A stretch of 38,192 bases of DNA, from contig CALKXZ010000290.1 of the NCBI GenBank assembly GCA_938003775.1, forward strand, positions 1 through 38,192, in the 5' to 3' direction. This stretch comes from an uncultured Granulosicoccus sp. GTDB lineage: Bacteria; Pseudomonadota; Gammaproteobacteria; Granulosicoccales; Granulosicoccaceae. The notes under the pieces are model-generated. The model was not told where the DNA came from. It saw only the letters and a list, made by a program, of their open reading frames with translations, and did no database searches. The position numbers were made by a program, and so were the translations under genes. This document shows positions 1 through 26,385 of this stretch, in pieces. Each line of letters starts with the position of its first letter. Position 1 is the stretch's first letter.

Positions 1-2256
1 GGAAATGAAGATACCACCACCTACGTTTTGAATTGAACTGGTTCCAAGTAGATCGGTTCCAATTAAGTTACCACGAAGTACATTGAAATCCACACCTGCA
101 CCAGAGATGACAATGCCGTGGCTGGCGTTGCCAGACACAAGATTGCCCTCACCAGACACGCCCGTACCAATATAGTTAGATGACGCACCAATCCGAATAT
201 TAATACCATAGCTACCATTGGAAATGGACGATGTACCGAGCGCATTTGTACCGATCTTATTACCCGCAAAAACGTTGCCTGTCGTACCTGACGAACTTAT
301 GTAGACGCCTTCCGAAATATTCCCAGAGATCACATTACCCCCAAGACCCGCACCACCTACAATGTTATCTTGTGCACCCGCAGTAATCTGTAGCCCCTGC
401 CCAGCGTTATGCAACGCCAATGTGCCATCCGAATCAAGGCCAATAATATTTCCCTGAATAATATTTTGATCAGTACCGGAATCAGAGATGAATATGCCAT
501 CAGAGCCATTACCGGATATAACATTTCCCTGATCAATAAGTGACCCACCGATTAAGTTATTCGATGCACCTCCAGTCAGACGTACACCGGTAGAGGCATT
601 CTGTAAACGTGCGTCACCATCACCATTAATACCAATATAGTTGCCTTGTAGCGTGTTTCCAGTCGTATTATTCCCATCGATAGTGACACCGGTATTACCA
701 TTGCCAGAGATCAGATTTCCATCCGCTATGCCGGAACCACCAATGAAATTGCCTGACGAGCCACTATTAATCAACACTCCGTGAGAGGCATTATCCAGTG
801 ATAATGTTCCGTCCGCATTGGTTCCAATTCGATTACCCAGAACATAGTTGCCGCTTGTTGATGCGCCTTCAATCAAGACACCGACGCTGGCGTGGCCAGA
901 GATAAGGTTGTTAGAGATTGTGTTGTTACTTGCACCATTGGTAAGCAACACTCCGTGAAGGCCATTCGCCAATGCGTTGTCGCCGTTTGTATCTGTGCCG
1001 ATATGATTGTTATCGACGATATTACCTGTGGACAAGGACCCTGAAATCACCACATTAGTGCCATCATTACGACTGATGAGATTTTGCGTCGAAAGGGAAA
1101 TGTCACCGATTTTAGAATTTGATACGTTAATAAAGGTAATGCCTGTTTGATCGTTAGAGCCAGTTCTTCCAATAACGTTATCAACAATGGTTAAGTTAGA
1201 TGTGTTCTCGGCGTATATACCTGACCCCGGAAAATTACGAATATCAAAAGAGCTTAAGGTGCTACCATCACTGCCTGCGATAAAATTCAATCCATTCACA
1301 ACACCAGACAAAAGAGTACCGTTAAGACGAATGTCATTTCCGATCATCTCAACTTGAGTTTCAATAGCTGGGAGAGCGGTCAAGGGACGAATGGCTGCAA
1401 TAACACTGGGGCTAACGTTTATGATATGAGGTCCTGAACCAGCCGCCGCATTCACATCAAGAATGGCCTGCCTGAGAGAGTCTGCCCCGGAGTCGTTGTT
1501 GTTGGTCACATTGAATGTTGCAAATGACCCCACGTAGTCATTGAGCACCTGTGCACCAAGCGCTGCATTGGCCTCAATTTGCCCCACACGGTGCTCCAGT
1601 CGCCAGTCGCCCCCAAGAGCTGCTGCCCCGGTTGTATTTTGCGAAGCTGCAATATCAGCACGGGTTAATTGACCGAGCAGATTAGCGAATACGACACCGT
1701 TGGTCGAACTAGCCAGGTCGCAACCATACAAAAGAATATCAGCATCGGCACCCAACGAACCGGCCCAGCCAGTAATCTGTTCAGCACGACTCATCAACGT
1801 TTCGAGTGTTACAGTTGTATTACCCAGCAATAACTCCGCATCCTGACCATGCGAGAACAAATGCACGCTAGCTATGTTTTCATACTGTGCCAGTGCAATG
1901 CTTATCTGGTCCAAACCATCTTGGTCTGCTTGCAGAAACACGATCTCTTGGTTGGTTAAACCCGCGCGACTAAACTGTTCAGCAATCCAATCAGCGTTGT
2001 CTACAGAAAGGTCAATAATGATAAGCTCCAGACCTGGGCTTTCCGCCTTAGAAACTGCAGAATCCTGACTGGGTGTTTGGCTTAACGTTGACTGCCATTG
2101 CACCGATGACAGTGTATCAACGACTGGGTCAGGTAATAACAGAGTGCTCCCTATCGCACTAATTGAATCAGCCGAAAATAGTAGGCGTGGCTCAAGTGTC
2201 TCCAATATAAAGGAGTCTTTTACTGGCGGTTTTTTCTGACGCTTAGAAAATCGCAT
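1..2256 (-). CDS. LEPR-XLL / DUF4347 / beta-helix giant surface protein, N-terminal part (runs off the window)
   Basis: Open frame of 752 codons with no stop, starting at ATG 2256 and leaving the window at base 1, so the C-terminus is missing. A basic N-terminus (MRFSKRQKK) is followed by the LEPR-XLL motif LEPRLLFSA at residues 21-29. There is no hydrophobic Sec signal peptide. Residues about 75-240 match DUF4347, with SHG at 135-137 and YGCD at 177-180. From about residue 245 the protein is beta-helical. From about 410 it has at least five units of about 64 residues, each built on GNxIxGNxIGT and SNxIGG...GNxISGN turns, typical of NosD-like right-handed beta-helices. LEPR-XLL proteins are usually very large exported proteins. 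I infer export to the cell surface by the system encoded just upstream (2497-9168). An AAGG at about 11 bases upstream is the only ribosome-site candidate. Confidence 0.9.
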   Translation of the reverse strand, partial: MRFSKRQKKPPVKDSFILETLEPRLLFSADSISAIGSTLLLPDPVVDTLSSVQWQSTLSQTPSQDSAVSKAESPGLELIIIDLSVDNADWIAEQFSRAGLTNQEIVFLQADQDGLDQISIALAQYENIASVHLFSHGQDAELLLGNTTVTLETLMSRAEQITGWAGSLGADADILLYGCDLASSTNGVVFANLLGQLTRADIAASQNTTGAAALGGDWRLEHRVGQIEANAALGAQVLNDYVGSFATFNVTNNNDSGADSLRQAILDVNAAAGSGPHIINVSPSVIAAIRPLTALPAIETQVEMIGNDIRLNGTLLSGVVNGLNFIAGSDGSTLSSFDIRNFPGSGIYAENTSNLTIVDNVIGRTGSNDQTGITFINVSNSKIGDISLSTQNLISRNDGTNVVISGSLSTGNIVDNNHIGTDTNGDNALANGLHGVLLTNGASNNTISNNLISGHASVGVLIEGASTSGNYVLGNRIGTNADGTLSLDNASHGVLINSGSSGNFIGGSGIADGNLISGNGNTGVTIDGNNTTGNTLQGNYIGINGDGDARLQNASTGVRLTGGASNNLIGGSLIDQGNVISGNGSDGIFISDSGTDQNIIQGNIIGLDSDGTLALHNAGQGLQITAGAQDNIVGGAGLGGNVISGNISEGVYISSSGTTGNVFAGNKIGTNALGTSSISNGSYGINIRIGASSNYIGTGVSGEGNLVSGNASHGIVISGAGVDFNVLRGNLIGTDLLGTSSIQNVGGGIFIS

Positions 2257-2496
2257 AGTATCGCCTTAATTGGAAGTCCAATCCCTCCATTCGCTCATTT
2301 GCGGACAGTCGGACGGCCCGACCAATAGGTCGTGCACAAGACGCGCCGTCTTAACAAATCTATGCCGTAGTCTCCCGACGCTGTAGGTAATTGAGCAGTA
2401 ATCAACAGTGATTCTGTGCCGCAGATCTCATTTGACAATCTATCTTCGTGGCGCACAACGAAAGAAGCCGGATAACTTTGGCTATTTATCAGCGAA
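2257..2496 (-). promoter_or_regulatory. Leader region of the LEPR-XLL gene with two adjacent hairpins
   Basis: This 240-bp gap separates the exporter operon from the giant-protein gene. It contains two back-to-back inverted repeats: CGACC-aata-GGTCG (2319-2332) and AAGACG-CGC-CGTCTT (2338-2352). Neither is followed by a T-run on the minus strand, so they do not look like intrinsic terminators. They could structure the 5' leader of the giant-protein mRNA or bind a regulator. No convincing -35/-10 pair was found. Confidence 0.35.
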
Positions 2497-3468
2497 TCAG
2501 CGTGGTTCTCGGAAGTTATAAGGCTCCACCGCTGCGCCTAGCTCTGGTGCCTGCACGCCTGCGTTGTCAGTATTTTTACGTGCCGGAATAAAGGACCCAG
2601 CATTGTCGACAGCATTAAAACTAACGCGGCATTTTTGACCCGCCGGTACCAATAACTCTGCATTTGGCAACAACAAACGCACACCGAACGTACCACTGCG
2701 TGCATCGAGTAGCGGATCAACCACTTCCACCCGAGCTTCCATCGGGTTTCCACTTTCTAGCTCGGGAAATATTCGTGCCGTATCGCCAGGTTCTACCGTC
2801 CCAAACAATCGTGCGGGAAGTACAACTTCAACGCGTAGTGGATCAAGCTGAGCGATGGTCATGACTGGATTGTCGAAGACGAGTTCACCTGGATACACCA
2901 ATTGACTAACGACGACGCCGTCAACAGGGCTCCGGATTGTACGCTGCTCCAGTGCGCGTCTAGTACGTTTCAACTCAAGCAGCTGGAGTTGACGATTCTC
3001 CAGAGCCTGAACCAGTGCAGCATTAGCGATCTGCTCTCGCGCTACAGCCTCATCACGTTGTTGAGCCGGTGCTAGTTTTTGAGAGTGCAGATCAATAAAC
3101 CGTTTGCTATCGAGCCGCGCAAGAGACAGATCTGCTTCACGTGTAGCCACTTCACCTTGCATGTCCGCTCGGGCTTCAGCCTGTTCGATAACCGCCTGCT
3201 CGATGCTGGACTCCAGTTCCACAACCGGCTGACCGCGAGTCACTTGCGCGCCTCGGTCTACCATCAGACGAGCAACGATTCCCTGAGTCGGGCTACCAAC
3301 ATCGGTGAGCACCAGCGGTTCGATCAGGCAGTCGTGAGCGGTATCGGGCACAACACTGTCTTGTTGGGCAAAAACTTGTGACGGCACCAAAGCGGTAGCA
3401 GCGCACAAGGCTATTGCTAAATACCGATTCAAGGGTGTTTTAGTATCATTGAAAATCTTAATATTCAT
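2497..3468 (-). CDS. Periplasmic adaptor (HlyD/RND membrane-fusion family)
   Basis: A 323-residue protein with an N-terminal signal peptide (hydrophobic 15-30, likely cleavage after VFA at 34). It then shows the adaptor layout: first lipoyl half-motif about 55-88, an alpha-helical coiled coil about 90-175 rich in Glu, Ala, Gln and Arg, second lipoyl half (RSPVDGVVVSQLVYPGEL) about 179-197, and a beta-barrel to about 290. Unlike classical HlyD it has no N-terminal anchor, so it should be fully periplasmic, as in RND adaptors that contact an outer-membrane channel. Its start overlaps the SecA-like stop by 4 bp (ATGA), indicating translational coupling. It is the last gene of the four-gene operon and lies directly upstream of the LEPR-XLL gene. 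I infer that it bridges the inner-membrane parts to an outer-membrane channel not encoded in this window. Confidence 0.85.
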   Translation of the reverse strand: MNIKIFNDTKTPLNRYLAIALCAATALVPSQVFAQQDSVVPDTAHDCLIEPLVLTDVGSPTQGIVARLMVDRGAQVTRGQPVVELESSIEQAVIEQAEARADMQGEVATREADLSLARLDSKRFIDLHSQKLAPAQQRDEAVAREQIANAALVQALENRQLQLLELKRTRRALEQRTIRSPVDGVVVSQLVYPGELVFDNPVMTIAQLDPLRVEVVLPARLFGTVEPGDTARIFPELESGNPMEARVEVVDPLLDARSGTFGVRLLLPNAELLVPAGQKCRVSFNAVDNAGSFIPARKNTDNAGVQAPELGAAVEPYNFREPR

Positions 3469-5516
3469 GCTGGATGCTCAGGATGACCTCCAAAGGCGAC
3501 ATGACGGGCTATCTGATTGCGAGTGGTCAGTGCTGCGCGACGTTCTGCGGCATGTCTCCACTCAATACGGCGCTGTGTGAGTTTGACGACACACAACGTG
3601 AACGCAAGACCGATGCCGGATGGATCACCGTGTCCGAGAACACGGCGTGTTAGTGCCAGAAAAAATCGAGGTAGCCTAGCCACAAGGATAGGTTCATCCA
3701 GTGTCCAGAGTTGTCGAAATGAACCGGGTTCGCCCTGGCGTGCGGTCCTCCCGACCAGTTGGCGATCAACGCGACGGGAATCATTGAATGCCAGCGAGAC
3801 AAGATGCAGTCCTCCCCTGTCTGCCACACCAATTCCAAGTGGTATATCGGTACCGCGTCCAGCCATGTTGGTGGCGACCGTAACCTGTCCAGCACGACCA
3901 GCTTTAGCAACAAGTGCTGCCTCGTCCACGCTTTGGCTGGCATCCAGTACTTGGTGGCAGATTCTATGCGCAGTTAGCATTGCGCTGATGGCGCGCGAAT
4001 GTTCAACACTACGGGTACCGATCAGTGTGGGCCGATTACACGCCAAAGCGCGCCGTACTTCTTCGATCAGGGCATCCAACTGTTCAGCTCGTGATTGAAA
4101 TACAAGCGTTGGAAGAACAGTCAAGCGCGACGGTTTCGCAGGTGCTACCTGCACTAGTGATGCATCGTAGACACGTGCAAGTTCCGCTCTGGACTCGCTC
4201 AGCGTACCGCTAGTGCCTACTAGTTTTTTGTATCGTAAGAAAAAATTTTGACAAGCGATCGACGCTACAGTCTCACTATCCGCGCTCTGTAAGCACTGCT
4301 CCTTCAGCTCTAATAAGCCATGCAGTCCATGCTGCAGTCGCCGATCAGGCATCGCTCTTCCGGTTTGTTGGTCAACAAGAAGAACCCGACCATCACGCAC
4401 GACATAGTCATGATCTCGCTCCCACAGATGCAATGCGGCTAATGCTTGGCGTACACGCTCATTACGAAAGCGGGTAGATTTCCACACACCGGGTACGCGC
4501 TGCGCCAGGTTGGCAAGCGTGACTGATCCAACTTCAGTGAGTGTGACCTGGCGCTGTTCCAAGCGCATCTGATAATCACGAACTGGACACAATAGTTGCG
4601 CCAGAGACAGTGCAATACTCCCCTCGTTGGTTATTTTCCCCGATGCCTGCGGTGCCGCGAGAACCAACGGTATACGCGCCTCATCGATAAGTAGACTGTC
4701 TGCCTCATCGAGAATGGCAGCACACAGCCCTCGCTGCAACGGTGTGGGTTTGTCACTAGAGCGTGGACGCGTCAATGCCCTTAATCGAGCAACCAGTGAG
4801 CCGGCGTCGGGCCCTAATGCTAGTGCATCTCGCATCCAGTCAAAACCAGATTGTTTACCGGTCAAATGAACGACATTGCAACTATAAGCATGCCGCCTGT
4901 CATCATCATCCATGGTTGGCAATACACAAGCGCATGAGAGACCGAGCGCGCTGTACAGTGGAGCCAAACGCGTTGTGTCTCTCTGAGCCAGATAATCATT
5001 GGCCGTCAATACATGTACTGGCGTACCATCTAGCGCTGTAACAGCTGCACAAAGTGCGGTTGTGAGTGTTTTGCCCTCACCGGTAGGCATTTCCACAAAG
5101 CGACCCAACAGTAACGCTACCGCGGCTCTGCACTGCCCGTCTCGAGGTATTAGATTCAGCGTGTATTCTGCAACCACACACGCATGCGCTAATGCATCAA
5201 GCAGCGTACTCTGGTTGTACCTGTTTACACACAACCGCTGCCGTAGATGCGATAAAGCGTTGGCCTGCTCATCACGCGACAGTACCCTAAGTTGATCAAT
5301 GCGCGCCGCAAGCTCAAGCAGTTGCTTGTTCATCTCTCGCCTCTCTAAACGGCGGCTCAGTGGTTCAAGAGAGTGCTTTATATAGCGATCAAAATTGTTA
5401 ATACGCGTCTGCGAAGGAGAGCGTTCAGGTGCCGGTCCATGACGCGCCCCAGGCCTGTGGCGTGCGAACGGTGAATTGTCCATGTCGCCAGAGAAATTAT
5501 GCATCAGACTCTTCAT
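3465..5516 (-). CDS. Divergent, C-terminally shortened SecA-like translocase ATPase
   Basis: A 683-residue protein with the full SecA motor signature: Walker A MPTGEGKT at 143-150, LDEADSLLIDEAR at 269-281, the segment VDQQTGRAMPDRR at 381-393 that follows the preprotein cross-linking domain, GTSGTL at 434-439, NMAGRGTD at 550-557 and the arginine-finger region GRTARQGEPGS at 589-599. Housekeeping SecA is about 850-900 residues. Here only about 84 residues follow the arginine finger, so the helical wing, the two-helix finger and the zinc/SecB-binding tail appear to be missing or reduced. The first 40 residues are Pro/Arg-rich and unlike SecA. Both ends overlap neighbours by 4 bp (ATGA), so it is part of the exporter operon. 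I infer a dedicated motor for the LEPR-XLL substrate and not the general SecA. Confidence 0.9.
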   Translation of the reverse strand: MKSLMHNFSGDMDNSPFARHRPGARHGPAPERSPSQTRINNFDRYIKHSLEPLSRRLERREMNKQLLELAARIDQLRVLSRDEQANALSHLRQRLCVNRYNQSTLLDALAHACVVAEYTLNLIPRDGQCRAAVALLLGRFVEMPTGEGKTLTTALCAAVTALDGTPVHVLTANDYLAQRDTTRLAPLYSALGLSCACVLPTMDDDDRRHAYSCNVVHLTGKQSGFDWMRDALALGPDAGSLVARLRALTRPRSSDKPTPLQRGLCAAILDEADSLLIDEARIPLVLAAPQASGKITNEGSIALSLAQLLCPVRDYQMRLEQRQVTLTEVGSVTLANLAQRVPGVWKSTRFRNERVRQALAALHLWERDHDYVVRDGRVLLVDQQTGRAMPDRRLQHGLHGLLELKEQCLQSADSETVASIACQNFFLRYKKLVGTSGTLSESRAELARVYDASLVQVAPAKPSRLTVLPTLVFQSRAEQLDALIEEVRRALACNRPTLIGTRSVEHSRAISAMLTAHRICHQVLDASQSVDEAALVAKAGRAGQVTVATNMAGRGTDIPLGIGVADRGGLHLVSLAFNDSRRVDRQLVGRTARQGEPGSFRQLWTLDEPILVARLPRFFLALTRRVLGHGDPSGIGLAFTLCVVKLTQRRIEWRHAAERRAALTTRNQIARHVAFGGHPEHPA

Positions 5517-7678
5517 ACACGTGTTCGCTCATCGAATGCTCGGCGTAATACGTCGATTAATCGAGTACCTAGCGGTGTGGGTGTATGAACAAACCTTACA
5601 TCGACGTGGGCGCCAATGGGTGCAGGGCCCGCATCACTTGGCCAAGCAAGTTCAATATCTATAACCGGTTCCATGACTTGTCGACCATCTCCTTGTGGAT
5701 CTGCCCGGTGCTCGCCACCACCCGCGGTGCTGAGCGCGGCACTGGGGACATCACGACTTGCGCGCGGTGTACGGGCAACAATCGAGGTACGATGTACCGT
5801 TGGACCCTGTTTCTCAGAACCGACACGAACCTCTACACGCCTCAGACCAATATCAAGCTCACCAGCTACTCGCTCTGCAATCGCAACCCTCACAGTGCGT
5901 AACGAAGAAGGGACCACGTAACCTGCAATATCGCCACGCACCAGTGCACGACCCTCCAAGGCAGCTGTGCCAGGTGCATCAAACAATCCATCAAAAGCGG
6001 CAACACGACTCCCAGCATCGATACGATGACGCATATCAGCCAGTGCTGCCTGGTTGACCACACGCTCAGATTCAAGCCGTGAGCGCTCCGACGAATCATC
6101 CAGCGCAAATCCTGCAAGACGTGCATCAAGTTCGTCCTCTAGGGCCATAAGCTCACGCACTCGCGGACTCAATTCAGGATCAACACAATCAAACAGTGCC
6201 TGACCCACTGACACCTGCTGACCCGGACTTACAGATGCCACGGTAATTTCGCATTCACTTTCAGCGCGAATAATGGCCTCATCCGGTAGCCAGACCACGC
6301 CACGTGTCACGTTGGAATGGGGTAACGGCATCCACAAAAGCAATGCCCCAATCAGCATAGGAATACCGCTGATGAGCAATACTGGTCGGCTAGCATGCAA
6401 AGACGGATCGCGTGCAACGGCTCGAATGCCCCGACACAGTGGCACGATAATACTAGTGGTTATTGCGTAGACAGCCAGTGCCACGCCAAATAAGGGCAAG
6501 CGTTCACTGAGCCACCATGCAATCCAGAGCATAAGCCCGGTACGGTAGATCGCTGAGGCGACGCCATAGCCTAATAGCCAGCGTTGCTCGGCGTTATCAC
6601 TGGAGGGTTCAGTCTGATCAGCATCGCCACTGAGCCATGCGCGCAGGCGTGTCAGCACTGCGCGACGCGACCGCATTCCCAGGTTAGGAATCTCGAGAAA
6701 ATCAGCCAGCAGATAATAACCGTCAAAACGCAATAAAGGGTTACCGTTGACGAGCAAAGTGGACACACCACCAACGAGCAAGAGCGCTAGTCCAATTTCG
6801 GCAAACAAACCTGAGCTACCCGCAAACAGCAGTGCACCAAGCGCCGCAAAGGCCAGTTCAAACCCGATACCCGCTGCCGCAACTAGCATACGGTCATACT
6901 TATTTGGAAAGGCAGCGCTGGCACTGGCATCAACATAAGGTAGTGGTACCAACACCATTAAGGCTAACCCAATCTCATGCACCTCTCCACCGCATCGTTT
7001 AATAGCCAGAGCATGACCTAGCTCATGCAGGAGCTTCAACGGTGGATACAGCAGCAACATCAACAGTGCCGTTCGCGGCGAGGGAAAGTCACCAGCTGTC
7101 AACGTGGACGCCAGATTAGCGCCTCCAATCAACAACGCAATCATCCCCGCAAGCACAAGGATCAACCAAAGTACAAGAGCGGTCCGCGAAAACAACGCAT
7201 CAGCAAGCGGCTTAAGCCGCGTTAACCAAGCGTCTGGATCATGAAGGGCAAAGCGAAGGAAAAGTGGATTTAAACGTCGGGCACGACGCTCTCTAGAGCG
7301 GCGTTCATGCCGACGCTCAAACAGTTGCTGCGGCGAAACACGCTGATCCACCTGCAGTAGTTCGGCCGATTGCAGGCTTGCCAACAACGCAATCCATTCA
7401 TCTTGTGTGGGCGCAGATTTATCACGCTCAACCAGCACGCGTTCCCAAACCTCACGCACTGATGTATGCCCATCGAGTTGATCGATCAACGCGAAAGCGT
7501 TGCTATCCAGTCGATGAAATTCACCCGTTGCGCGACGCTGCAAAACCCACGAAGCTCGACCACGATAAACATGGCGAATAATCGACACATCATCCGCAAG
7601 ACGGGGACGCACGTCGCACACGCGGTGCCAGTGTTCGCTGAACAGCCGATCTTGGTTCAACTTGACAGTCTCCACCAA
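5513..7678 (-). CDS. PqqD-like / M50 zinc metallopeptidase / HlyD-like fusion membrane protein
   Basis: A 721-residue multi-domain protein. Residues about 15-115 resemble a PqqD-type winged-helix peptide-binding domain (DSNAFALIDQLDGHTSVREVW). Residues about 165-425 are multi-membrane-spanning and carry the M50 site-2-protease motifs HELGH at 218-222 and NGNPLLRFDGYY at 311-322, the latter supplying the third metal ligand. A further membrane helix at about 433-452 is followed by a lipoyl-like segment (SVSPGQQVSVGQALFDCVDPEL), a short helical hairpin and a beta-barrel-like end, as in HlyD adaptors. All predicted metal ligands are present, so it may be active. It overlaps the upstream gene by 22 bp and the SecA-like gene by 4 bp. 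Its role is inferred: substrate recognition, processing or gating at the inner membrane during export of the LEPR-XLL protein. Confidence 0.88.
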   Translation of the reverse strand: MVETVKLNQDRLFSEHWHRVCDVRPRLADDVSIIRHVYRGRASWVLQRRATGEFHRLDSNAFALIDQLDGHTSVREVWERVLVERDKSAPTQDEWIALLASLQSAELLQVDQRVSPQQLFERRHERRSRERRARRLNPLFLRFALHDPDAWLTRLKPLADALFSRTALVLWLILVLAGMIALLIGGANLASTLTAGDFPSPRTALLMLLLYPPLKLLHELGHALAIKRCGGEVHEIGLALMVLVPLPYVDASASAAFPNKYDRMLVAAAGIGFELAFAALGALLFAGSSGLFAEIGLALLLVGGVSTLLVNGNPLLRFDGYYLLADFLEIPNLGMRSRRAVLTRLRAWLSGDADQTEPSSDNAEQRWLLGYGVASAIYRTGLMLWIAWWLSERLPLFGVALAVYAITTSIIVPLCRGIRAVARDPSLHASRPVLLISGIPMLIGALLLWMPLPHSNVTRGVVWLPDEAIIRAESECEITVASVSPGQQVSVGQALFDCVDPELSPRVRELMALEDELDARLAGFALDDSSERSRLESERVVNQAALADMRHRIDAGSRVAAFDGLFDAPGTAALEGRALVRGDIAGYVVPSSLRTVRVAIAERVAGELDIGLRRVEVRVGSEKQGPTVHRTSIVARTPRASRDVPSAALSTAGGGEHRADPQGDGRQVMEPVIDIELAWPSDAGPAPIGAHVDVRFVHTPTPLGTRLIDVLRRAFDERTRV

Positions 7679-9168
7679 AGCTCACTGAGGTGCTGCAGGA
7701 GCGTTTGCCCCCACCGACGTGCCAGACTTACACGATCTGTGTTGAGACTCGCGATACCACTCTCGCCAGGGCGTGGTGTTATGCCAGGTGGAACATCAAG
7801 CGCTGCGCGGACGCGAAAACGGCTGGCACCATCAGCACTCTCGGCAACGGGGTGAATGGCACGAACAATAAACGGCATCGCCTCACTTGGACGCGAACGC
7901 AGAGACAACGAACCTACCTGCCCTTCCTGCACTTCTCGAATGTGACGCTCATGCACCATCAGGTGGACTTCAAATCCATCCGCCCGCGCGATTTCGAACA
8001 GCGCCTCACCACGGGTCACTGGTGTGCCAATAGCGTCTGCAGGATCTCCACTGACTATCAGACCATCTATTGGCGCTCGCAGCTCAATTCTGTCTAACCT
8101 TTGACTGACCAATGCACGCAAAGCCCGCTCACGATCTAACTTGGCCCTGGCAATTGCCGTCGCCTGACGATCATAGCTGGCCATCGCGGCCCGGAATTCG
8201 GATTCAGCACTGGCGATCTCACCATCGCGTCTGGTCAATTCCAGTTCTAACTCCACGGAATCCAGACGTGCCAATAGTTGCCCAGCTGACACAGCCTCAC
8301 CAGGCTTTACCACCACTTGTTCAACAAAGCCATCAAAGGGTGCGGCGATCAGCCGACGCTCACTTGGAACCAACTCGGCATCGGCAGGAACACTGTGTGG
8401 CAATGGCACCATGGCAACAAAAACCAACGCTGCCAATGACAAAACCAGCAGCAGTCGCGCGCCGTGACGCTGTGCCCCGAAACGCTGGCTAAAGAACGCG
8501 TGCATGGCGTGTCGCAAACGTGCGAATGTACCGAGTTCAGCCTCACAACGAACAGCGATCAACGGCGCTGTTACCAGTGCAACGTGTTCTAGCAAATCAA
8601 GCGTATCTGCCACAAATGGCTCGGCGTCAAGACGCTCCAGTAGCAATACACCCACAGGCTCCGCATGACGAAATAACGGCACGCTGACCAAATTGTTTCT
8701 GTCATGTCGTGAGTACAGCGCTCTATGGGCGGTCAGTACCTCGAGTCCAGCATCCGATGATGGAAAACAAACCAGTTGCTCATAGTCGATACATTCCTCC
8801 ATCACTTCCGTCAACAATCTGGCCTCGTCCGAGGCAACATCAACAGTTGCTTGCTGTGAGATTGCGTTTAACGCGATTACCCCATCCTCTTGGACCAATC
8901 CAATGGCGACTCTGGTGGCAGCAAACTGCTGCTGAAGTGCACCTGCAAAGGCGTCTACCGCTCGCTCCAGATCCGTAGGTGCAAGTAATTCTGCCAACAA
9001 TGCAAGTACGCTCGCTTGCTGATCAGCGAGCGATTCTGCTTTTTCGGCTCGATCCAGTACTAGCGCGTCCTTTGCCGCACCGTTAGGCACGCGCTCACCA
9101 TTACCCGGCAGTGACTCAGAGTCCACGCCGGGTTGTGTCGCTTCTTGATAACGATGAGTTGCGCGCAT
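7657..9168 (-). CDS. GAF-domain HlyD-family membrane fusion protein
   Basis: A 503-residue protein. The cytoplasmic N-terminal half holds a GAF-like domain at about 65-205 (VAIGLVQEDG, VSVPLFRHAEPVGVLLLERL). A single membrane helix at about 237-255 follows. The periplasmic part has the HlyD layout: lipoyl half (IAAPFDGFVEQVVVKPGEAVSAGQ split around the coil) about 273-303, helical hairpin about 305-350, second lipoyl half about 358-390 and a barrel to about 475. A GAF domain fused to an adaptor suggests that a cytoplasmic ligand is sensed by the export complex; the ligand is unknown. This is the first gene of the operon. Its ATG has no clear Shine-Dalgarno sequence, so a slightly different start is possible. 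Confidence 0.87.
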   Translation of the reverse strand: MRATHRYQEATQPGVDSESLPGNGERVPNGAAKDALVLDRAEKAESLADQQASVLALLAELLAPTDLERAVDAFAGALQQQFAATRVAIGLVQEDGVIALNAISQQATVDVASDEARLLTEVMEECIDYEQLVCFPSSDAGLEVLTAHRALYSRHDRNNLVSVPLFRHAEPVGVLLLERLDAEPFVADTLDLLEHVALVTAPLIAVRCEAELGTFARLRHAMHAFFSQRFGAQRHGARLLLVLSLAALVFVAMVPLPHSVPADAELVPSERRLIAAPFDGFVEQVVVKPGEAVSAGQLLARLDSVELELELTRRDGEIASAESEFRAAMASYDRQATAIARAKLDRERALRALVSQRLDRIELRAPIDGLIVSGDPADAIGTPVTRGEALFEIARADGFEVHLMVHERHIREVQEGQVGSLSLRSRPSEAMPFIVRAIHPVAESADGASRFRVRAALDVPPGITPRPGESGIASLNTDRVSLARRWGQTLLQHLSELWWRLSS

Positions 9169-10256: not shown

Positions 10257-11327
10257 GTGGGTGATTCTGACTGGCTCTTACCAGCTGCAGGATTAATATG
10301 CGGGATTGTGTTGGGTGGTGCCGCGCGCTGGACGCACTTCTGCACCCTGTCCTCACTAGAACGATATTGGTACGCGGACGATAGTCGCGGTTTACGTACC
10401 TGGGTGTTGGCCAGCGCAGTTGCGCTTACCGGTACCCAGGCTATGATTGCGCTGGGTTGGCTTGACATCAGTGAAACGTTCTATCTGGACAATCGCTTAA
10501 GTTGGCTCGGTGCGATTCTTGGCGGACTATTATTCGGGTTGGGCATGGCGCTGGTCGGCACCTGTTCGTTTGGCGCATTAGTACGTTTGGGTAGTGGAAG
10601 TCTTCGCTCGCTAATAGTAGTAATAGCAATTGGACTTGCTGCCCTGACCACGCAACGTGGATTGACAGGACGATGGCGCATGTCGCAAATTGAACCTCTG
10701 GCACTGGACTTGTCAGCTTTCAGCAGTCAATCCATAGGAGATCTAATTAGCGAGTTGATCGGCTTGTCGGTATCTCCATTGGTCGCGTTAATGTTTGCCA
10801 TTGCCTTGTTCTACTGGGTTTTCCGAGAACCGTCGTATCGCTGTGAAACACGCAGTATTGTAACCGGCACCATTGTAGGCCTATGCGTCTGCTTTGGCTG
10901 GTTTGCCACGAGCTATCTGGGCACACAGGTGTACAGCGTGGTGCCAGTGGAGTCTGCATCGTTTGTGCGTCCACCGGGCGATTTACTGCTCACCTTCATT
11001 GCAGCAACTCCCATTATTCCAGACTACGGTGTCGGGCTACTCCTTGGTGTTGTCGCTGGCTCCGCGCTTGTAGCGCGAGCCAGCCGCGATATGCACTGGG
11101 AGGCTTGTGATGATGCCAGAGAGTTAGGGCGTCATCTGCTTGGCGCATTTTTTATGGGAACAGGCGGTGTATTGGCAGCCGGGTGCACGGTCGGTCAGGG
11201 AATCAGTGGACTATCCACCATGGCACTATCTGCACCCATCGTGGTTATCAGCATTTACGTAGGTGCACGAACTGGTCTAGCCTGGTTAATTGAGGGACGA
11301 CCTTTTGCCATGCTACATAGCGGCTAA
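10257..11327 (+). CDS. YeeE/YedE-family thiosulfate-type transporter (TsuA/SoxT-like)
   Basis: A 356-residue inner-membrane protein with many hydrophobic helices, the length of full two-repeat YeeE/TsuA proteins. The three cysteines thought to relay thiosulfate in TsuA are present in their usual contexts: RWTHFCTLSS (Cys29), GTCSFGAL (Cys103) and AAGCTVGQG (Cys310). The start is a GTG at 10257. An in-frame stop lies just upstream and no earlier Met is available, so GTG is the best choice despite no clear ribosome site. It lies 66 bp after the repressor, probably in the same transcript, and may import thiosulfate or another sulfane-sulfur compound. Confidence 0.85.
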   Translation: MGDSDWLLPAAGLICGIVLGGAARWTHFCTLSSLERYWYADDSRGLRTWVLASAVALTGTQAMIALGWLDISETFYLDNRLSWLGAILGGLLFGLGMALVGTCSFGALVRLGSGSLRSLIVVIAIGLAALTTQRGLTGRWRMSQIEPLALDLSAFSSQSIGDLISELIGLSVSPLVALMFAIALFYWVFREPSYRCETRSIVTGTIVGLCVCFGWFATSYLGTQVYSVVPVESASFVRPPGDLLLTFIAATPIIPDYGVGLLLGVVAGSALVARASRDMHWEACDDARELGRHLLGAFFMGTGGVLAAGCTVGQGISGLSTMALSAPIVVISIYVGARTGLAWLIEGRPFAMLHSG

Positions 11328-11555: not shown

Positions 11556-12869
11556 TTATCTCAGTTCGCTGACCACTGGCCGGGTCATCGCCAGTAACGC
11601 CGGGAATAACGCTAAAAGTGACACACTGCTGAGAAACAACGCAGCGCTATGCCATTCAGGCCATCCGATAGACGCCTGCACCAGTATATTAGTCTGCTGG
11701 GAAATATAGGTCGAGACCTGGCCAGTCAGTGCAATCGCCATCACGAGCCCGACAACAGTGCCTAGTAATACAAGACCGGCACAGTAACACCACAGCACAC
11801 ACAACACGAAGCGGCTCGGTGCACCCACCGCTCTGAGCATAGCAAGTTGACGAGCGAACAATCGTGTCACCAGGATCAGGGCTGCCAGCACACTCAATGC
11901 GACCAAAATTTGAGTCACAGAGGCCATTATTGACATGACTTGACGTACATCACCGAGCACCTTATGCAAGCGTGTGAGCACTGCACCTGGAAAAAAAGCC
12001 ATAGTATCGTTGCGGCTAAATTCACTTCGTAAGCCGTAATTACCCGCTAATGAGGTAGCGCGCACCACAATTGAACTGACCCCAGGATGGTTCTTTGCAT
12101 CAAACGGTGGACCCAGCTGGTTGGTGGAACCCGGTTCATGACCATTACCCAGACCGTGCAATTGCCAAACCGCTTCGATGGGAATGAGCACCGCTTTGTC
12201 CCAAGGGCTCCCCGTCGGCTGAAGCCTGCCAGTAACAGTGAACTGTTGATGGGCATGAACCAGAACACCGTCATGCTCAGCGTTAAAGTGTTCGCCTACT
12301 CTCAACGCAGATCGGGCACCAATCACGGCATCGAACGTAGATTCAAAATGTTGACCCTCCGCCAATTCCGCAGACAGGTGTTGTACCAGGGCGCTGATAG
12401 TCCCGACCATCGGTTCACCAGCGACAACATCGCCTAAGACCACGGGCGCCGCGAAATCCACAGCCTTATGATGGGTAAGCTCGTCCAGTACCGTAGACGG
12501 CAAAAGAGGTGCGGAACCGGGCTGCAAGTACACGGTGTTCAGCAGGCGATCTACTTCACTGCCGGGGGTGGTCACAATTAGGTCAAATTTTGATGCTGAT
12601 TCGGCGCTGCCGACACGTAGGGCACGCTCCTGAGCTAACAACCCGACGCCTAAACCCACCGACACACCGATAACAAGAACGAACACAACATTGGTCCAGA
12701 AATAACGGCGCAATAGAGAGCTGACAAGTGGTGCTGGCCCATAACCAAACACCAGTACGGTAGCAAGAACCAAAACCGGCAACACGATTACCACGAGCAA
12801 GGATACATCCTGAGCAAATGCCGACAGTAAATCCCAGCGACTCAAGAAAAACTCCATAATACTAATCAT
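11556..12869 (-). CDS. FtsX/MacB-type ABC transporter permease
   Basis: A 437-residue protein with hydrophobic helices at about 22-42 and 58-78, a large extracytoplasmic domain at about 80-320 (MacB-PCD-like, FDLIVTTPGSEVDRLL and following), and three C-terminal helices at about 325-345, 365-390 and 405-425. The FtsX signature region RQLAMLRAVGAPSRFVL lies between two of these. The C-terminal topology fits mechanotransmission or lipoprotein-release exporters, with an extra helix near the start. It overlaps the ATPase stop by 8 bp and so forms a transporter with it. The substrate is unknown; the neighbouring secreted protein may be its partner. An alternative start is the ATG at 12857. Confidence 0.85.
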   Translation of the reverse strand: MISIMEFFLSRWDLLSAFAQDVSLLVVIVLPVLVLATVLVFGYGPAPLVSSLLRRYFWTNVVFVLVIGVSVGLGVGLLAQERALRVGSAESASKFDLIVTTPGSEVDRLLNTVYLQPGSAPLLPSTVLDELTHHKAVDFAAPVVLGDVVAGEPMVGTISALVQHLSAELAEGQHFESTFDAVIGARSALRVGEHFNAEHDGVLVHAHQQFTVTGRLQPTGSPWDKAVLIPIEAVWQLHGLGNGHEPGSTNQLGPPFDAKNHPGVSSIVVRATSLAGNYGLRSEFSRNDTMAFFPGAVLTRLHKVLGDVRQVMSIMASVTQILVALSVLAALILVTRLFARQLAMLRAVGAPSRFVLCVLWCYCAGLVLLGTVVGLVMAIALTGQVSTYISQQTNILVQASIGWPEWHSAALFLSSVSLLALFPALLAMTRPVVSELR

Positions 12870-13608
12870 CTAGCGCAGCGCTGGATGTGTCATCACAATG
12901 GATTATGTCTCGCCCATACTCATCAGCCTCTGGGAACTGATCCGCACCGATCTCTCGCCCATCGACAAGACGGACAATGCGATCCATATGTGCAAGCAAT
13001 TGCTCGTCGTGGCTAACCACAAACAAGCTTTTGCCTGTGTCACGCACTACTGTCAATAGATCGTTGACTAGCTCATCCGCTGTTGCCCGATCAAGACTTG
13101 CTGTGGGTTCATCGGCCAGAATGATGTCAGGATCACTTGCCAATGCACGCGCCACAGCGACACGTTGCCGCTCTCCACCGGAATAGCTACGCACGGGCCG
13201 ATGATAATCGCGAATACCGAGATCCATGAGCAGTGTTTGTGCTCGTTGATCGATAGCCAAACGATTTGAGCGAGGTGTAAAGCCTTTGGACAATTGCACA
13301 TTTTGCAATGCGCTGAGTTCTTCGAAAAGGAGAATATCTTGAAACACCTGACCAACATGCTGCCGACGAAATTCGCCTCGTTGGCTGGAGCCAGCCTCGA
13401 GTAGGTTGTAATCATTCCACCGGATTTGTCCGGTAGCGTGTTCTGCCAGGCCGGCCAATGCGAATAACAATGTGGATTTACCTGCGCCAGATGGACCGGC
13501 TATGCCAACACATGATCCACCCTGTACGGTTAATTGATCGATAGACAGAAGTGTTCGACTGTCGGTGCCAAAAACCTGCAATTGGTCCACTACTAGGGTT
13601 AGCGACAC
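12862..13608 (-). CDS. ABC transporter ATPase (LolD/MacB type)
   Basis: A 248-residue nucleotide-binding subunit with Walker A GPSGAGKST (38-46), Q-loop VFQD (88-91), signature SGGERQ (143-148), Walker B IILADEP (162-168) and switch His200 (VVSHDE). Its size and motif spacing fit the LolD/MacB class that pairs with FtsX-like permeases. Translation starts at GTG 13608, 3 bp after the stop of the upstream small secreted protein, and overlaps the permease gene by 8 bp. It energises the permease at 11556-12869. Confidence 0.9.
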   Translation of the reverse strand: MSLTLVVDQLQVFGTDSRTLLSIDQLTVQGGSCVGIAGPSGAGKSTLLFALAGLAEHATGQIRWNDYNLLEAGSSQRGEFRRQHVGQVFQDILLFEELSALQNVQLSKGFTPRSNRLAIDQRAQTLLMDLGIRDYHRPVRSYSGGERQRVAVARALASDPDIILADEPTASLDRATADELVNDLLTVVRDTGKSLFVVSHDEQLLAHMDRIVRLVDGREIGADQFPEADEYGRDIIHCDDTSSAALDD

Positions 13609-17538: not shown

Positions 17539-18507
17539 TCATTCAACAATAAATCGGTAGCCTTGGCGTGTTTTATCCACTTGACCCAGTCCCGGATAAG
17601 GGAGATGAAATGCGAGCAGCTTTAGATTCTCGTTATAAGATCGTTCTAGCAACATCTGGCGCGTAGCTGCACCAGCTACAGGGTCTAAATCTGCACTAAT
17701 CAACCACTTCGGCTGCTCAAACGACAACGCAATATGTGTCAGCGCATCCCCCGCCACTAACACCGTGTTATCACCGTTATGAATTGCAAATGATGTATGA
17801 CCTGGGGTGTGACCGTGCGTATCAATCGCCTCAACCCCTGCCACAACTTCGTCTCCCCAGTTGTAAAACTGAAGTTGCTCCTGCAGTCGTGGTAGCCGAT
17901 TCTGTGCACCTATGACAAATGTTTTCCGATTCTCCGCCGTGCCAGAAAGCGTTTTGTCGTCCATCCAGTAGTCATACTCAAATTGATGTATATGGTGGGT
18001 TGCATTGGCGCACAGTAGCTCATCAAAATTATCCAGTACTCCCCACAGGTGATCCGGATGCGCATGTGTAAAAATGACATCTGTTACATCGAGCGGATCA
18101 ATGCCCACTGTTTCGAGTTGTGTAGGCAACAGACCCGTGGTGTTCATAAAATTGGCACCCGAACCAATATCAAACAGAATTAACTTATCTTTATTGCGCA
18201 ATACCGTGATATTGCAATCGGGTTGATTGATGTGCGGATCAAGCTGATAGCGGTCGAATAGACCCTGCCACTGAGACATTTCAATGCGAGTATCGTACGG
18301 CTTGCGTGGCGGTAGATCCAAGTGCCCATCCGATAACACACTTAACTCACCGCCGCTAGCCATGTGTATGGTGGGGCTAGCAGCAGCGCGAACCAATGAA
18401 GGTAGTGTCGTACTCAGAGTCGTGGTGGCCGCTAGGTACCCCAGCAATCGACGACGACTCCAATCTGGACGTACATCACGGGTGTACATGTCATCCAGCC
18501 ATGTCAT
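17539..18507 (-). CDS. Tat-exported MBL-fold metallohydrolase of the sox cluster
   Basis: A 322-residue protein with a twin-arginine signal (WSRRRLLGYLAA, Arg18-20, followed by a hydrophobic run to about 42). The metallo-beta-lactamase domain has a complete first motif THAHPDH (148-153), a second ligand in HGHTPGHTSF and Asp in VAGDALTH. It is therefore likely a folded, metal-loaded periplasmic hydrolase. Its ATG overlaps the fccB stop by 4 bp, so it is co-translated with flavocytochrome c. The substrate is not known. The context suggests a role in sulfur-oxidation intermediates, in contrast to the degenerate MBL in the next gene. Confidence 0.87.
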   Translation of the reverse strand: MTWLDDMYTRDVRPDWSRRRLLGYLAATTTLSTTLPSLVRAAASPTIHMASGGELSVLSDGHLDLPPRKPYDTRIEMSQWQGLFDRYQLDPHINQPDCNITVLRNKDKLILFDIGSGANFMNTTGLLPTQLETVGIDPLDVTDVIFTHAHPDHLWGVLDNFDELLCANATHHIHQFEYDYWMDDKTLSGTAENRKTFVIGAQNRLPRLQEQLQFYNWGDEVVAGVEAIDTHGHTPGHTSFAIHNGDNTVLVAGDALTHIALSFEQPKWLISADLDPVAGAATRQMLLERSYNENLKLLAFHLPYPGLGQVDKTRQGYRFIVE

Positions 18508-19781
18508 CCAAACATGTCAGCTGTGATTGAAGCGTACCAGCCTACAGATTCTTCATAAGTGGTTTTACGCAGTGCCGCATCTTCACCGGTTTGACTAATA
18601 AATGTAGACGTGGAGACGATCTGACCGGCGTCATCTGCTTCATACTGCGCCCCAACTTTCACGCCATTGTCAGCAGCAATGAGACTCCAGCAGGTGTTCG
18701 AGTACTTGGCCGCAAACACACGCGAGTCCAGTAAATCTCCCAAAACATTCATGGCGGCTACCTTTGCTTGGCTATTGGCAGAGAAGCCTGATTTGGGCAT
18801 GGCTCCGGCAATACTAGCATCACCAATGACGTATATTTTCTCGTCCGCAGATGAACGCATTGAGTGTCCATCAACCGGACAGAATCCGCTGTCATCACTC
18901 AACCCTGCACTAACAGCAATAGCGCCAGCCTGTTGTGCCGGTATGATATTGAGAACCGCGGCTTCAAACGTATCCAGGTCAGTTTCTACGGTACCCGAAT
19001 TGGCGTCCACCGACAGGATGCCACCGTGTATTTCAGGTGAAATCCACTCGATAATATCGCCATAGTGGGTTTCCCACCCCTCAGTAAACAAGCCTTGTTT
19101 AGAGAATTTCGGTTTGACATCCAGTATAGTGACCTTACTATCGGTGAACCCCTTAGACTGAATAAGATGCGCCATCATGGATGCCCGCTCGTATGGTCCT
19201 GGTGGGCAGCGGTAAGGGTTTGGTGGCGCTACCATCACAATGTTTTCACCATTTTCTAGAGCATCAAGCTTTTCTTTTAGAATTTGTGTTTGTGATCCGC
19301 CTTGCCAGGCATGAGGTGCAATTTGCGATGCCGCTTCACTGTAACCGGGTACCGATTCATATTGTATATCTATACCTGGGGCAACAACCAGTGCATCGTA
19401 GGCAAGCTTAGTTCCGTCTTCGAGCATAACCATTTGTTGGCTGCGATCTATTTCCTTTGCATAACCATTGACAATAGTAATGTCATGGTCCGCTGCCAAT
19501 TTATCGTATGAATGCGTTATAGAGTCAAAATTTCTAAAATCACCCAGAAATAGATTCGAATAGAAACACGTTGTGTACTGTGTAGAGCTTTCCACCAGTG
19601 TTACATCTATTGCGCCTTTAGCGCCTTGAGACAGGTAACGGGCAGCAGTGGCTCCGCCGGCACCACCACCAATGACCACAACCTTTGGTTTAGCTTGCCC
19701 GAGCAACGTAATAGGCGTTGCTAACGCTGCCGTACCCAATCCCAATAGTGCCGTAAATTCTCGTCTCGTCAGATTCTTCAT
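18504..19781 (-). CDS. fccB: Flavocytochrome c sulfide dehydrogenase, flavoprotein subunit (FccB/SoxF)
   Basis: A 425-residue FAD protein with a Tat signal (LTRREFTALLGLGTAALATP). The dinucleotide-binding motif VVVIGGGAGGATAARYL lies at 34-50. Cys72 in QYTTCFYSNLFLG matches the cysteine that covalently binds FAD in FccB. Cys192 (YRCPPGPYERA) and Cys363 (NTCWSLIA) match the redox-active disulfide pair that receives sulfide. A second FAD motif IYVIGDAS is at 315-322. It would oxidise sulfide to zero-valent sulfur and pass electrons to the cytochrome encoded just upstream. AGGAG lies at good spacing before the ATG. Confidence 0.92.
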   Translation of the reverse strand: MKNLTRREFTALLGLGTAALATPITLLGQAKPKVVVIGGGAGGATAARYLSQGAKGAIDVTLVESSTQYTTCFYSNLFLGDFRNFDSITHSYDKLAADHDITIVNGYAKEIDRSQQMVMLEDGTKLAYDALVVAPGIDIQYESVPGYSEAASQIAPHAWQGGSQTQILKEKLDALENGENIVMVAPPNPYRCPPGPYERASMMAHLIQSKGFTDSKVTILDVKPKFSKQGLFTEGWETHYGDIIEWISPEIHGGILSVDANSGTVETDLDTFEAAVLNIIPAQQAGAIAVSAGLSDDSGFCPVDGHSMRSSADEKIYVIGDASIAGAMPKSGFSANSQAKVAAMNVLGDLLDSRVFAAKYSNTCWSLIAADNGVKVGAQYEADDAGQIVSTSTFISQTGEDAALRKTTYEESVGWYASITADMFG

Positions 19782-19888
19782 TGTTTACGCTCCTGATTTG
19801 GCCAACAATTGCAGTTAGCATCTCTTGTTGTTCGGTTATTTTCTTTACTTTTCATAGCCACGCGTACACTTAATTGTTAGCTCCTGTG

Positions 19889-20284
19889 TTAACACGCTGA
19901 GCTTGAAGTGCTCTCACCACACACATATTCAGTTTTAGATAGATAGAACACCAGTGCTGCTATCTCAGCGGCATTTAGCGCTTCAGCCACACTTTGCATT
20001 GTTGGATTTTTGCGCGCACCCATTTGAAATGCTAACAACATGGCGGTCAGGGTCTCAGGGGGCTTTCCATATATCATTGGAATCGAATCAGAGGCGTCGG
20101 CTGTTCGACTGTGACAAGCTATACACTCACCCGCCAGATATTCGCCATACGCATCGTCCGCTCCCAACGCCAATATCTGTTCAACTTTTTGAGTCATGTT
20201 TTCTGCCGACGCTGGTGTTGCAACCAACAACATGATAACCAGCAGCGAACTGCCAATCGACGGATTAATCCACAGTCGGTGCAT
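19889..20284 (-). CDS. fccA: Mono-heme cytochrome c subunit of sulfide dehydrogenase (FccA/SoxE)
   Basis: A 131-residue periplasmic cytochrome. I chose ATG 20284 and not the longer frame from 20314, because AGAGG (20291-20295) sits 6 bases upstream and a clean signal peptide follows (cleavage near ASA|EN at 27). One heme site, CIACH at 54-58, with a likely Met96 axial ligand in NPTMQSVAEAL. The fold is cytochrome c553-like. Two additional C-terminal cysteines (122 and 131) are unusual. It overlaps the soxD stop by 20 bp and precedes fccB. It should accept electrons from FccB. Confidence 0.85.
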   Translation of the reverse strand: MHRLWINPSIGSSLLVIMLLVATPASAENMTQKVEQILALGADDAYGEYLAGECIACHSRTADASDSIPMIYGKPPETLTAMLLAFQMGARKNPTMQSVAEALNAAEIAALVFYLSKTEYVCGESTSSSAC

Positions 20285-21392
20285 CGCTTGCCTCTTCTGC
20301 ATCAGGTGTGACATTTAATATCTGCGCTCTATTGATTACTTTGACTATTCCCGGTAAGCAGTTCTGCATACAAGGTTCCCCAACAATCTGATGAGTTGGT
20401 TCTTCGTCACGAGTATCACTCATAAAATTATTTTCATTAGGCAAGCGAATATCTGTGAAATTCTGATCAGATAGCTCGAATTCCTCATCCACTAGGTCAT
20501 TGAGGTAAAGCAGATACGCGGTTAGTGCATAAACATCATCATCACTGAGAGACCGCGCGTTACCAAAAGGCATGGCCCGTCGGATGTAATCGTATACAGT
20601 GGACAAATACGGCCAATAGGAACCAATAGTCTTCTCAGGTCGATCATCTACTAACGAATCCTGACCACCAGCCAGTATCGGCCAACGACCTTCTCCCTCG
20701 CCAAAGACTCCATGACAGCTGGCACATTGTTCATCATAGAGTTCTCCACCGGTGATCACATCACCACTGCCACTGGGTAATCCAACACCGTCTGGTCGTA
20801 TGTCAATATCCCAGGCAATGACTTCAGCATCCAGCGCTGGGCGGCCTAGATGTAACAGACCATGTTCCGGAATGGGTATATCTCGCGCAAGAGATCGTTG
20901 TTGCCCATCGCTGGTTTGTGATGTTTTTTCCGGCTTGGTCGCCGCAGGTTCGGGCAGTTGACCGCTACTGTCAATAGACGCTAGGTAAGCAATAACAGAT
21001 GCCCTGTCATCCGCATTGCTTAGACCTTGATAGGCCATTTTGGTACCTGGCATATAACTCATCGGTGCTTGTAAAAATGCATCTAATTTTGCGGTGTCCC
21101 ATACCGATTCGGTATCAATCGAGTTTTCAAACGCCTCTGAATAAGCATAGTTTTCAGCGCTACCTGCGGCGCGTTGCATGACGCCATTGAGATGTGGCCC
21201 AAACTGATTCTTTGCGTTGGGCCCTATGGCATGGCACGATGTACATTGCTTAAAAACAGTCGCTCCTGCGCCTAAGTCTTGTGCATATGTTGGATGTGTG
21301 TGAAAAAATACGATTACACTGAGCACAACTGGTAGTGATCGATCAATAAATTGTCGCTTCAAGCTGGCATTAGCCACAGCCACAATACGCAT
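20265..21392 (-). CDS. soxD: SoxD, diheme cytochrome c subunit of sulfane dehydrogenase
   Basis: A 375-residue periplasmic protein with a signal peptide (about 18-37). It has a class-I cytochrome domain at about 40-140 with CTSCH (50-54) and Met119 (MPGTKMAY), a Pro/Ser/Lys linker of about 30 residues, and a SoxD-type domain from DIPIPEHGLLHLGRPAL (171-187) with CASCHG at 223-228, GRWPIL and RAMPFGNA. It transfers electrons from the SoxC molybdenum centre to the respiratory chain. Its ATG shares one base with the soxC TGA (TGATG), so the two are tightly coupled. Cysteines near the C-terminus (GEPCMQNC) are an extra feature. Confidence 0.92.
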   Translation of the reverse strand: MRIVAVANASLKRQFIDRSLPVVLSVIVFFHTHPTYAQDLGAGATVFKQCTSCHAIGPNAKNQFGPHLNGVMQRAAGSAENYAYSEAFENSIDTESVWDTAKLDAFLQAPMSYMPGTKMAYQGLSNADDRASVIAYLASIDSSGQLPEPAATKPEKTSQTSDGQQRSLARDIPIPEHGLLHLGRPALDAEVIAWDIDIRPDGVGLPSGSGDVITGGELYDEQCASCHGVFGEGEGRWPILAGGQDSLVDDRPEKTIGSYWPYLSTVYDYIRRAMPFGNARSLSDDDVYALTAYLLYLNDLVDEEFELSDQNFTDIRLPNENNFMSDTRDEEPTHQIVGEPCMQNCLPGIVKVINRAQILNVTPDAEEASDAPTVD

Positions 21393-22714: not shown

Positions 22715-22810
22715 AACGACGCCTTTTAAATGGGTGAAATTGCTCACAGTTTATATTCACTAAATACTATGTATTATTTCGCACTGACTCTGAAACTAGG
22801 GTATTCACAA

Positions 22811-25907: not shown

Positions 25908-25919
25908 GTGTACTCTCCG

Positions 25920-26372: not shown

Positions 26373-26385
26373 GGTGATTCCTCGC

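Follow-up and report, generated by a model that had tools for sequence, protein, structure and literature searches.

Gene module for the proposed leader-guided export of LEPR-XLL giant proteins in Granulosicoccus and other bacteria

We have analysed a 38,192-nucleotide stretch of DNA from an uncultured Granulosicoccus sp. (the window; contig C290, CALKXZ010000290.1, from its first base), in which five genes on the minus strand make up a four-gene module and the beginning of a gene for a LEPR-XLL giant protein. The module encodes a GAF-HlyD protein, a fusion of an M50 metallopeptidase with an HlyD-like part and an N-terminal RRE domain (M50-HlyD), a SecA-like ATPase and a periplasmic adaptor. 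We propose, with a probability of about 0.6, that the module is an envelope export system dedicated to the giant LEPR-XLL surface proteins and guided by their leader. A more detailed and tentative version of the proposal, at somewhat less than even odds, is a new type of secretion system in Gram-negative bacteria, in which a SecA-derived motor, and not an ATP-binding cassette (ABC) protein, drives the giants through a conduit of HlyD and TolC proteins after the RRE-M50 receptor has bound and cut the LEPR-XLL leader at their N-terminus; variants of this core that have no SecA-like protein would use another motor. No description of such a system was found in the open-access literature searched; papers beyond that literature could exist.

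The module and its giant neighbours

The GAF-HlyD gene (503 aa, 7657-9168) overlaps the M50-HlyD gene (721 aa, 5513-7678) by 22 bp, which in turn overlaps the gene of the SecA-like ATPase (683 aa, 3465-5516) by 4 bp, and the latter overlaps the adaptor gene (2497-3468) by another 4 bp. A gap of 240 bp then separates the end of the adaptor gene from the start of the LEPR-XLL gene at 2256. An earlier note on this DNA had described the four overlapping genes upstream of a LEPR-XLL/DUF4347/beta-helix protein, and both the coordinates and the domain calls hold. Its description of that protein as a giant is borne out for the LEPR, DUF4347 and beta-helix start, and not for the length: the gene (1-2256) leaves the contig at base 1 with 752 N-terminal residues seen, and its size is therefore taken from relatives. 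Promoter- or terminator-like sites were not in excess across the module region.

Relatives of M50-HlyD are encoded at at least 585 loci, as judged by a pattern scan of 84,980 species genomes. The best 80 of these, picked by similarity to the window's M50-HlyD, span Alpha-, Beta- and Gammaproteobacteria, Desulfobacterota, Nitrospirota, Rokubacteria and Myxococcota. A SecA-like gene is found at 72 of the 80 (two are degenerate or broken), a share that is biased upward by the selection on M50-HlyD similarity, and three of the other eight are contigs ending just past M50-HlyD. The usual order among the best 80 loci is GAF-HlyD, M50-HlyD, SecA-like ATPase and adaptor, and the recurrence of the same order across phyla places the module far beyond chance.

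The giants accompany the module. A LEPR-XLL protein over the curated cut-off was present in 33 of 35 searched module genomes, usually exactly one per genome. In all 27 genomes outside the window's genus in which the giant could be placed, it lies within 10 kb of the module, in most cases directly adjacent with a gap under about 1 kb, and on the same strand in 21; most of these giant frames are 4,600 to 15,161 codons long. Among 370 evenly drawn Gammaproteobacteria, M50-HlyD occurred in 51 and LEPR-XLL in 29, with both in 27 (Fisher p = 1e-24, or 3e-23 without the window's genus), so that the co-occurrence survey asked for by the earlier note is in favour of its proposal, 27 of the 29 LEPR genomes having M50-HlyD and the two being physically linked. 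Copies of M50-HlyD scoring under about 480 bits are mostly without LEPR and look like a separate subfamily.

The SecA-like gene occurred in 20 of the 370 genomes, always with M50-HlyD and in 15 with LEPR-XLL. Three of the five genomes without a LEPR match (G017, G317 and G403) have an adjoining DUF4347 giant, and in two of these giants the leader has visibly degenerated (LESQERRILFSAD, MEPRVLFSDG). In G240 the module adjoins part of a repeat protein, and in G318 the contig ends. The earlier note had held that a module widespread without LEPR-XLL proteins would speak against its proposal. This is not the situation found: a giant gene, or part of one, is next to the module in four of these five genomes, and the fifth has a contig end.

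Leader, receptor, conduit and linked genes

The LEPR-XLL segment of the window's giant, a proposed leader, occupies residues 16-32 (..FILETLEPRLLFSAD.., 2161-2211) and matches the LEPR-8K profile (NF012209) with 24.3 bits against a cut-off of 17. Across 44 non-identical N-termini the segment is kept, with the consensus FxLExLEPR[VLI]L[FYL]SAD, in which R and A never vary and L, E, L, S and D hardly vary. It sits 15 to 77 residues past the called start in this set, and 5-6 residues past it in L114/L115. No hydrophobic N-terminal signal segment was found in the window's LEPR protein, in agreement with the earlier claim that it has no Sec signal peptide; the adaptor has such a segment. In most giants DUF4347 comes next after the leader, and the giant of L215 keeps the leader without DUF4347. 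LEPR-XLL is thus the constant N-terminal part and DUF4347 an optional one, which fits the role of a sorting signal that the earlier note had given to LEPR-XLL.

In the window's giant, DUF4347 (residues 78-243, 1528-2025; 4e-46) and Beta_helix both match above cut-off. DUF4347, which is still named as a domain of unknown function, models as a caspase-fold domain (clan CD cysteine peptidase) with a His/Cys dyad. The best fold matches of the model are the type VI secretion system effector Tce1 (Z 13.7), a CHAT protein (10.7), and legumain and caspases (8-9). His136, in a His-Gly pair, and Cys179 are kept in at least 90% of 12 sequences, and both are lost in the DUF4347 of L155. The predicted caspase-type fold, together with the conserved dyad, makes self-processing of the giant after export plausible.

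Near the C-terminus of the giants are RTX repeats, and LysM is found there too. Giants encoded upstream at L157, L165, L167, L171, L202, L222 and L233 have a short hydrophobic Gly/Ala-rich AGLxGW-like patch near the C-terminus, and a different conserved C-terminal end, FVDPLPVLGSL..DDDESLESMV, is found in the giants of L113, L115 and L119. A Vibrio LEPR-XLL protein of about 8,000 aa with RTX and serralysin domains has been mentioned in the literature (PMC10868602).

By sequence and fold, the N-terminus of M50-HlyD (residues 23-110, 7349-7612) is a PqqD/RRE leader-binding domain. Pfam PqqD is matched by 23 of 25 members (best 6e-9), and a profile of the segment searched against the PDB matched PqqD proteins only (best 3.7e-4). 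In the M50-HlyD model (mean predicted local distance difference test score (pLDDT) 85.6) the segment has the PqqD/RRE architecture of a three-stranded sheet with three helices. Among the best-ranked chains listed, to which all fold searches here refer, it matches along its full length the lasso-peptide B1 proteins 6jx3_B (Z 10.0, root-mean-square deviation (rmsd) 2.6, 84/85 residues) and 5v1v_A (Z 9.9, rmsd 2.7, 86/88 residues), both of which were solved with leader peptides. RRE domains are known binders of leader peptides. From the fold and the gene neighbourhood we infer that the RRE domain of M50-HlyD binds the LEPR-XLL leader, and the presence of a leader-binding domain supports the earlier view of the M50 protein as a receptor or processing unit.

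The peptidase part of M50-HlyD carries both active-site motifs of the site-2 protease class, along with the membrane helices that the class requires. In the HELGH zinc site (residues 218-222, 7013-7027), H218, E219 and H222 are invariant, as are N313, P314 and D319 in the second motif, NPLLRFDG (residues 313-320, 6719-6742); among the relatives HExxH and NPLLxFDG are invariant or nearly so. The Pfam-type M50 match is weak in the window's copy (23.5 bits, cut-off 27.2), and 32 of 34 relatives match. Distances between leaders correlate with distances between the linked M50 domains (Mantel r 0.785), HlyD parts (0.749) and RRE domains (0.658), and after removal of the HlyD part the correlation between M50 domain and leader is 0.39.

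HlyD domains occur in three module proteins, the adaptor, GAF-HlyD and relatives of M50-HlyD. In M50-HlyD the HlyD-like periplasmic part (residues 451-702, 5573-6328) has fold matches to EmrA, MexA and MacA, and HlyD_3 is found in 26 of 34 relatives. GAF-HlyD consists of a GAF domain (residues 66-201, 8566-8973), one membrane segment and an HlyD part, with GAF and HlyD above cut-off. The adaptor is of the HlyD/RND membrane-fusion type, scores 112.8 bits against the RND adaptor family TIGR01730 (cut-off 94.9) and has a hydrophobic signal segment at residues 16-34; there is no RND pump in the window's module. Outer membrane efflux protein (OEP) genes of the TolC type are linked to the module at L183, L188, L193 and L261, and also at L116, L117 and L121; these loci belong to Nitrospira, a Desulfobacteraceae metagenome-assembled genome, a gammaproteobacterium (L261) and a distant subtype. 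An unlinked TolC could serve the window and the other loci that have no such gene nearby. The distant subtype (L116, L117, L121) has the order TolC, HlyD, HlyD, M50-HlyD, giant and the leader variant LEPRIMLDAA, or LEARIMLDGA in L121.

Other genes recur beside the module. At many loci of the Granulosicoccus family the adaptor is followed, with or without the giant in between, by a membrane protein of GGDEF/EAL type or by a hybrid histidine kinase paired with a response regulator-GGDEF-EAL protein (L102, L104, L105, L108, L123-L126, L131; L113, L120, L129, L133; the Pfam scan of such loci covered L102, L109 and L113). These GGDEF/EAL or kinase neighbours, together with the GAF domain, hint that the module is used in response to signals, and they suggest control by cyclic di-GMP (c-di-GMP). 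A SapC-type gene stands between M50-HlyD and the SecA-like gene in several alphaproteobacteria, and SapC flanks the module in two gammaproteobacteria (PF07277; L191:10245-11027, L197, L224:10224-11075, L227, L231, L259:18597-19313, L263:13899-14675). In Campylobacter fetus, SapC belongs to the S-layer locus. The earlier note made no mention of the RRE domain, the linked TolC and SapC genes, the genes for c-di-GMP signalling or the peptidase fold that DUF4347 is predicted to have.

The SecA-like ATPase and the energy source

By domain matches and alignment, the SecA-like protein comprises nucleotide-binding domain (NBD) 1, the preprotein cross-linking domain, NBD2 and the start of the helical scaffold. 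Pfam SecA_DEAD, P-loop_SecA and SecA_PP_bind match above cut-off, and the Walker and helicase motifs, that is, all SecA motor motifs, are retained across 28 diverse members of the family; in the Walker A motif, MPTGEGKT (residues 143-150, 5067-5090), TGEGKT is invariant in the SecA-like alignment (A6). Its alignment with Bacillus subtilis SecA (841 residues) covers about residues 14-600 of the latter, and the protein ends soon after. Its scores are far below all curated SecA and SecA2 cut-offs (418/862, 413/814, 375/1085 and 359/930 bits, score/cut-off). In the tree, from which two rows labelled canonical SecA and earlier placed on a very long branch are excluded as probable wrong-strand open reading frames, the SecA-like proteins group in a single clade (support 100), distinct from the canonical SecA proteins of that class. 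Where the SecA-like gene is separated from M50-HlyD it still keeps to the giant: at L250/L251 and L252 it flanks the same giant/kinase locus. In G360 and G146 it adjoins a comparable cluster of kinase and giant genes (same contig in G360).

A number of observations weigh against an export system of this kind. The SecA-like protein is without the C-terminal third of SecA, including a full helical scaffold; the missing third is the region of the two-helix finger and the helical wing domain. A SecA-like gene is lacking at many LEPR/M50-HlyD loci and in entire genomes, including relatives that are 97-99% complete, the distant TolC-HlyD-HlyD-M50 subtype has no ATPase gene, and a SecY-like partner was not noticed at any mapped locus. 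The window and most other loci have no linked TolC gene. When the HlyD part is taken out, RRE divergence no longer follows that of the leader (partial r 0.09), and the leader covariation therefore does not single out the RRE domain. Some Granulosicoccus modules are followed by GGDEF/EAL genes in place of a giant, and LEPR is found in G142 and G271, where M50-HlyD is missing at the threshold applied. The LEPR match of G271 (G271:C57:21725-21784) is in a large open reading frame near an RND-looking gene, and that of G142 (G142:C348) is in an FG-GAP/RTX protein on a 3-kb contig.

The missing SecA third and the SecA-less loci leave room for the module to export the giant with the SecA-like protein acting not as the motor but in regulation, as a chaperone or as an unfoldase, so that the nascent chain stays open; the driving force would then come from the housekeeping SecA and SecYEG, from the proton motive force or from folding outside the cell. 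The complete or nearly complete genomes G001, G015 and G029 have M50-HlyD and LEPR proteins with canonical SecA only. The window's own genome encodes a canonical SecA (G000:C443) as well. At its second LEPR locus (G000:C27), a GAF-HlyD-type protein, M50-HlyD and an adaptor are encoded but the SecA-like gene is absent; next come genes for a hybrid kinase and for a response regulator containing GGDEF and EAL domains. We nevertheless regard a SecA-like protein that is not the motor as somewhat unlikely, since the family keeps all SecA ATPase motifs and the gene, where present, directly follows M50-HlyD at nearly all loci or flanks the same giant. The motor role assigned in the earlier note fits the motor motifs but is weakened by the missing third and by the many loci without the gene, and stays a putative one. 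Absence from so many loci means that the SecA-like protein is not a universal motor, and we infer a motor role for the SecA subtype only.

Alternatively, the giants could be RTX-type substrates of the usual kind, exported by a type I secretion system that is not linked to them, the module only processing or regulating them, for example by leader removal or surface retention. RTX repeats and LysM near the C-terminus of the giants would fit, and, when three curated families of type I ABC proteins (LssB, PrtD and HlyB) were used as the test, an LssB-type ABC was over cut-off in 19 of 39 module genomes and a PrtD-type in 10 of 16 genomes without LssB. None of the three was over cut-off, however, in Desulfoluna limicola (G067, a complete chromosome), where a giant of about 9,000 aa lies beside the module, in the window's own genome, in G017 or in G089. 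With four genomes carrying module and giant, at least one of them complete, but none of these ABC proteins, the three families encoded elsewhere cannot be the general route. The module, moreover, brings its own HlyD proteins and, at several loci, its own TolC, and we judge the type I explanation improbable. No type I ABC exporter is found in the module, and the earlier statement that this is not a standard type I system is in line with these results. ABC genes do lie upstream on the same strand at 11556-13608; their ATPase is LolD/DevA-like, below all cut-offs, and they were rejected as part of the module as they are not in the module of other genomes.

Very unlikely, finally, is a maturation pathway like those of ribosomally synthesized and post-translationally modified peptides (RiPPs), in which RRE-M50-HlyD would mature a small peptide and the giants would be neighbours for other reasons: an RRE domain is typical of RiPP enzymes and the closest curated family of the M50 part is the daptide biosynthesis HExxH metalloprotease NF041824, but the score (170.3 bits) is below the cut-off of 300 (small peptide genes were not searched for), and giants with a conserved leader are recurrent neighbours of the module across phyla.

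For a dedicated export system, binding, cleavage, energy source, conduit assembly and export itself may be pictured as follows. The segment FxLExLExR[ILV]L[FYL]SAD at the N-terminus of the giant would serve as leader and be recognised on the cytoplasmic side by the RRE domain of M50-HlyD, and the M50 site in the membrane would cut at or near it while the chain is being engaged. Together with the separate adaptor, the HlyD parts of M50-HlyD and GAF-HlyD would dock to a TolC-type outer membrane channel to form the conduit, into which, in the SecA subtype, the truncated SecA-like ATPase would feed the chain. Outside, the RTX repeats would fold with calcium and the caspase-fold DUF4347 may cut further, while the GAF domain and the GGDEF/EAL or kinase genes would place the system under signal control.

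Comparison with known systems and significance

The module shares with type I secretion its HlyD-type adaptors, a TolC-type channel at some loci and a giant RTX cargo without a Sec signal. Unlike type I secretion, its inner-membrane part is RRE-M50-HlyD, its ATPase is SecA-like or absent, and it has no type I ABC; type I cargo carries an uncleaved C-terminal signal, and the giants share the N-terminal LEPR-XLL segment as their proposed signal, some also having the C-terminal AGLxGW-like patch. Without an ABC protein, it is not type I secretion by defining features. The accessory Sec (SecA2) system similarly has a second, diverged SecA beside the housekeeping SecA and next to a special large cargo. 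The module's SecA-like protein, in contrast, is in Gram-negative HlyD/TolC loci, and its scores far below the SecA/SecA2 cut-offs and missing C-terminal third set the module apart from the accessory Sec systems by defining features. The peptidase-containing ABC exporters, like the processing of RiPP leaders (PqqD/RRE with C39 or M50), couple a leader binder to a leader peptidase and an exporter, but the module has a cargo of thousands of residues, M50 instead of C39 and no ABC unit. The M50 metalloproteases of daptide and epipeptide biosynthesis (NF041824, NF058609) resemble M50-HlyD in an RRE-like N-terminus (daptide model) and an intramembrane HExxH peptidase; the module protein differs in being fused to an HlyD domain and in falling below both cut-offs. 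Control of giant RTX adhesins by c-di-GMP, as in LapA/LapD, shares with the module a giant repeat protein and linked GGDEF/EAL genes; the module has no LapBCE-type secretion genes, and this likeness is one of gene neighbourhood only. On these comparisons we propose that the module works like a blend of type I and accessory Sec secretion with RiPP-type leader recognition.

Elsewhere in the window, a sulfur-oxidation cluster at 18507-26928 encodes SoxC (over cut-off), SoxY, a SoxA-like cytochrome, a 5'-nucleotidase/metallophosphatase, cytochromes c and a sulfide quinone reductase-like protein, and is accompanied by a YeeE/TsuA-like gene at 10257-11327. A multiheme cytochrome-like protein with an MtrC/MtrF-like domain is encoded beside a glucose/sorbosone dehydrogenase-like protein at 33154-36658.

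LEPR-XLL proteins of 5,000-15,000 residues occur in many Proteobacteria and in other phyla, and their exit route is undescribed in the open literature searched. The survey ties these giants to one conserved gene set and proposes which parts serve as leader, receptor, protease, ATPase and conduit. If the proposal is true, this would be a new kind of protein secretion system, the set being carried by hundreds of bacteria, and the combination of a SecA-type motor with an HlyD/TolC conduit would be a new way across two membranes. An RRE domain serving a giant protein would, in addition, extend leader recognition beyond peptide natural products.

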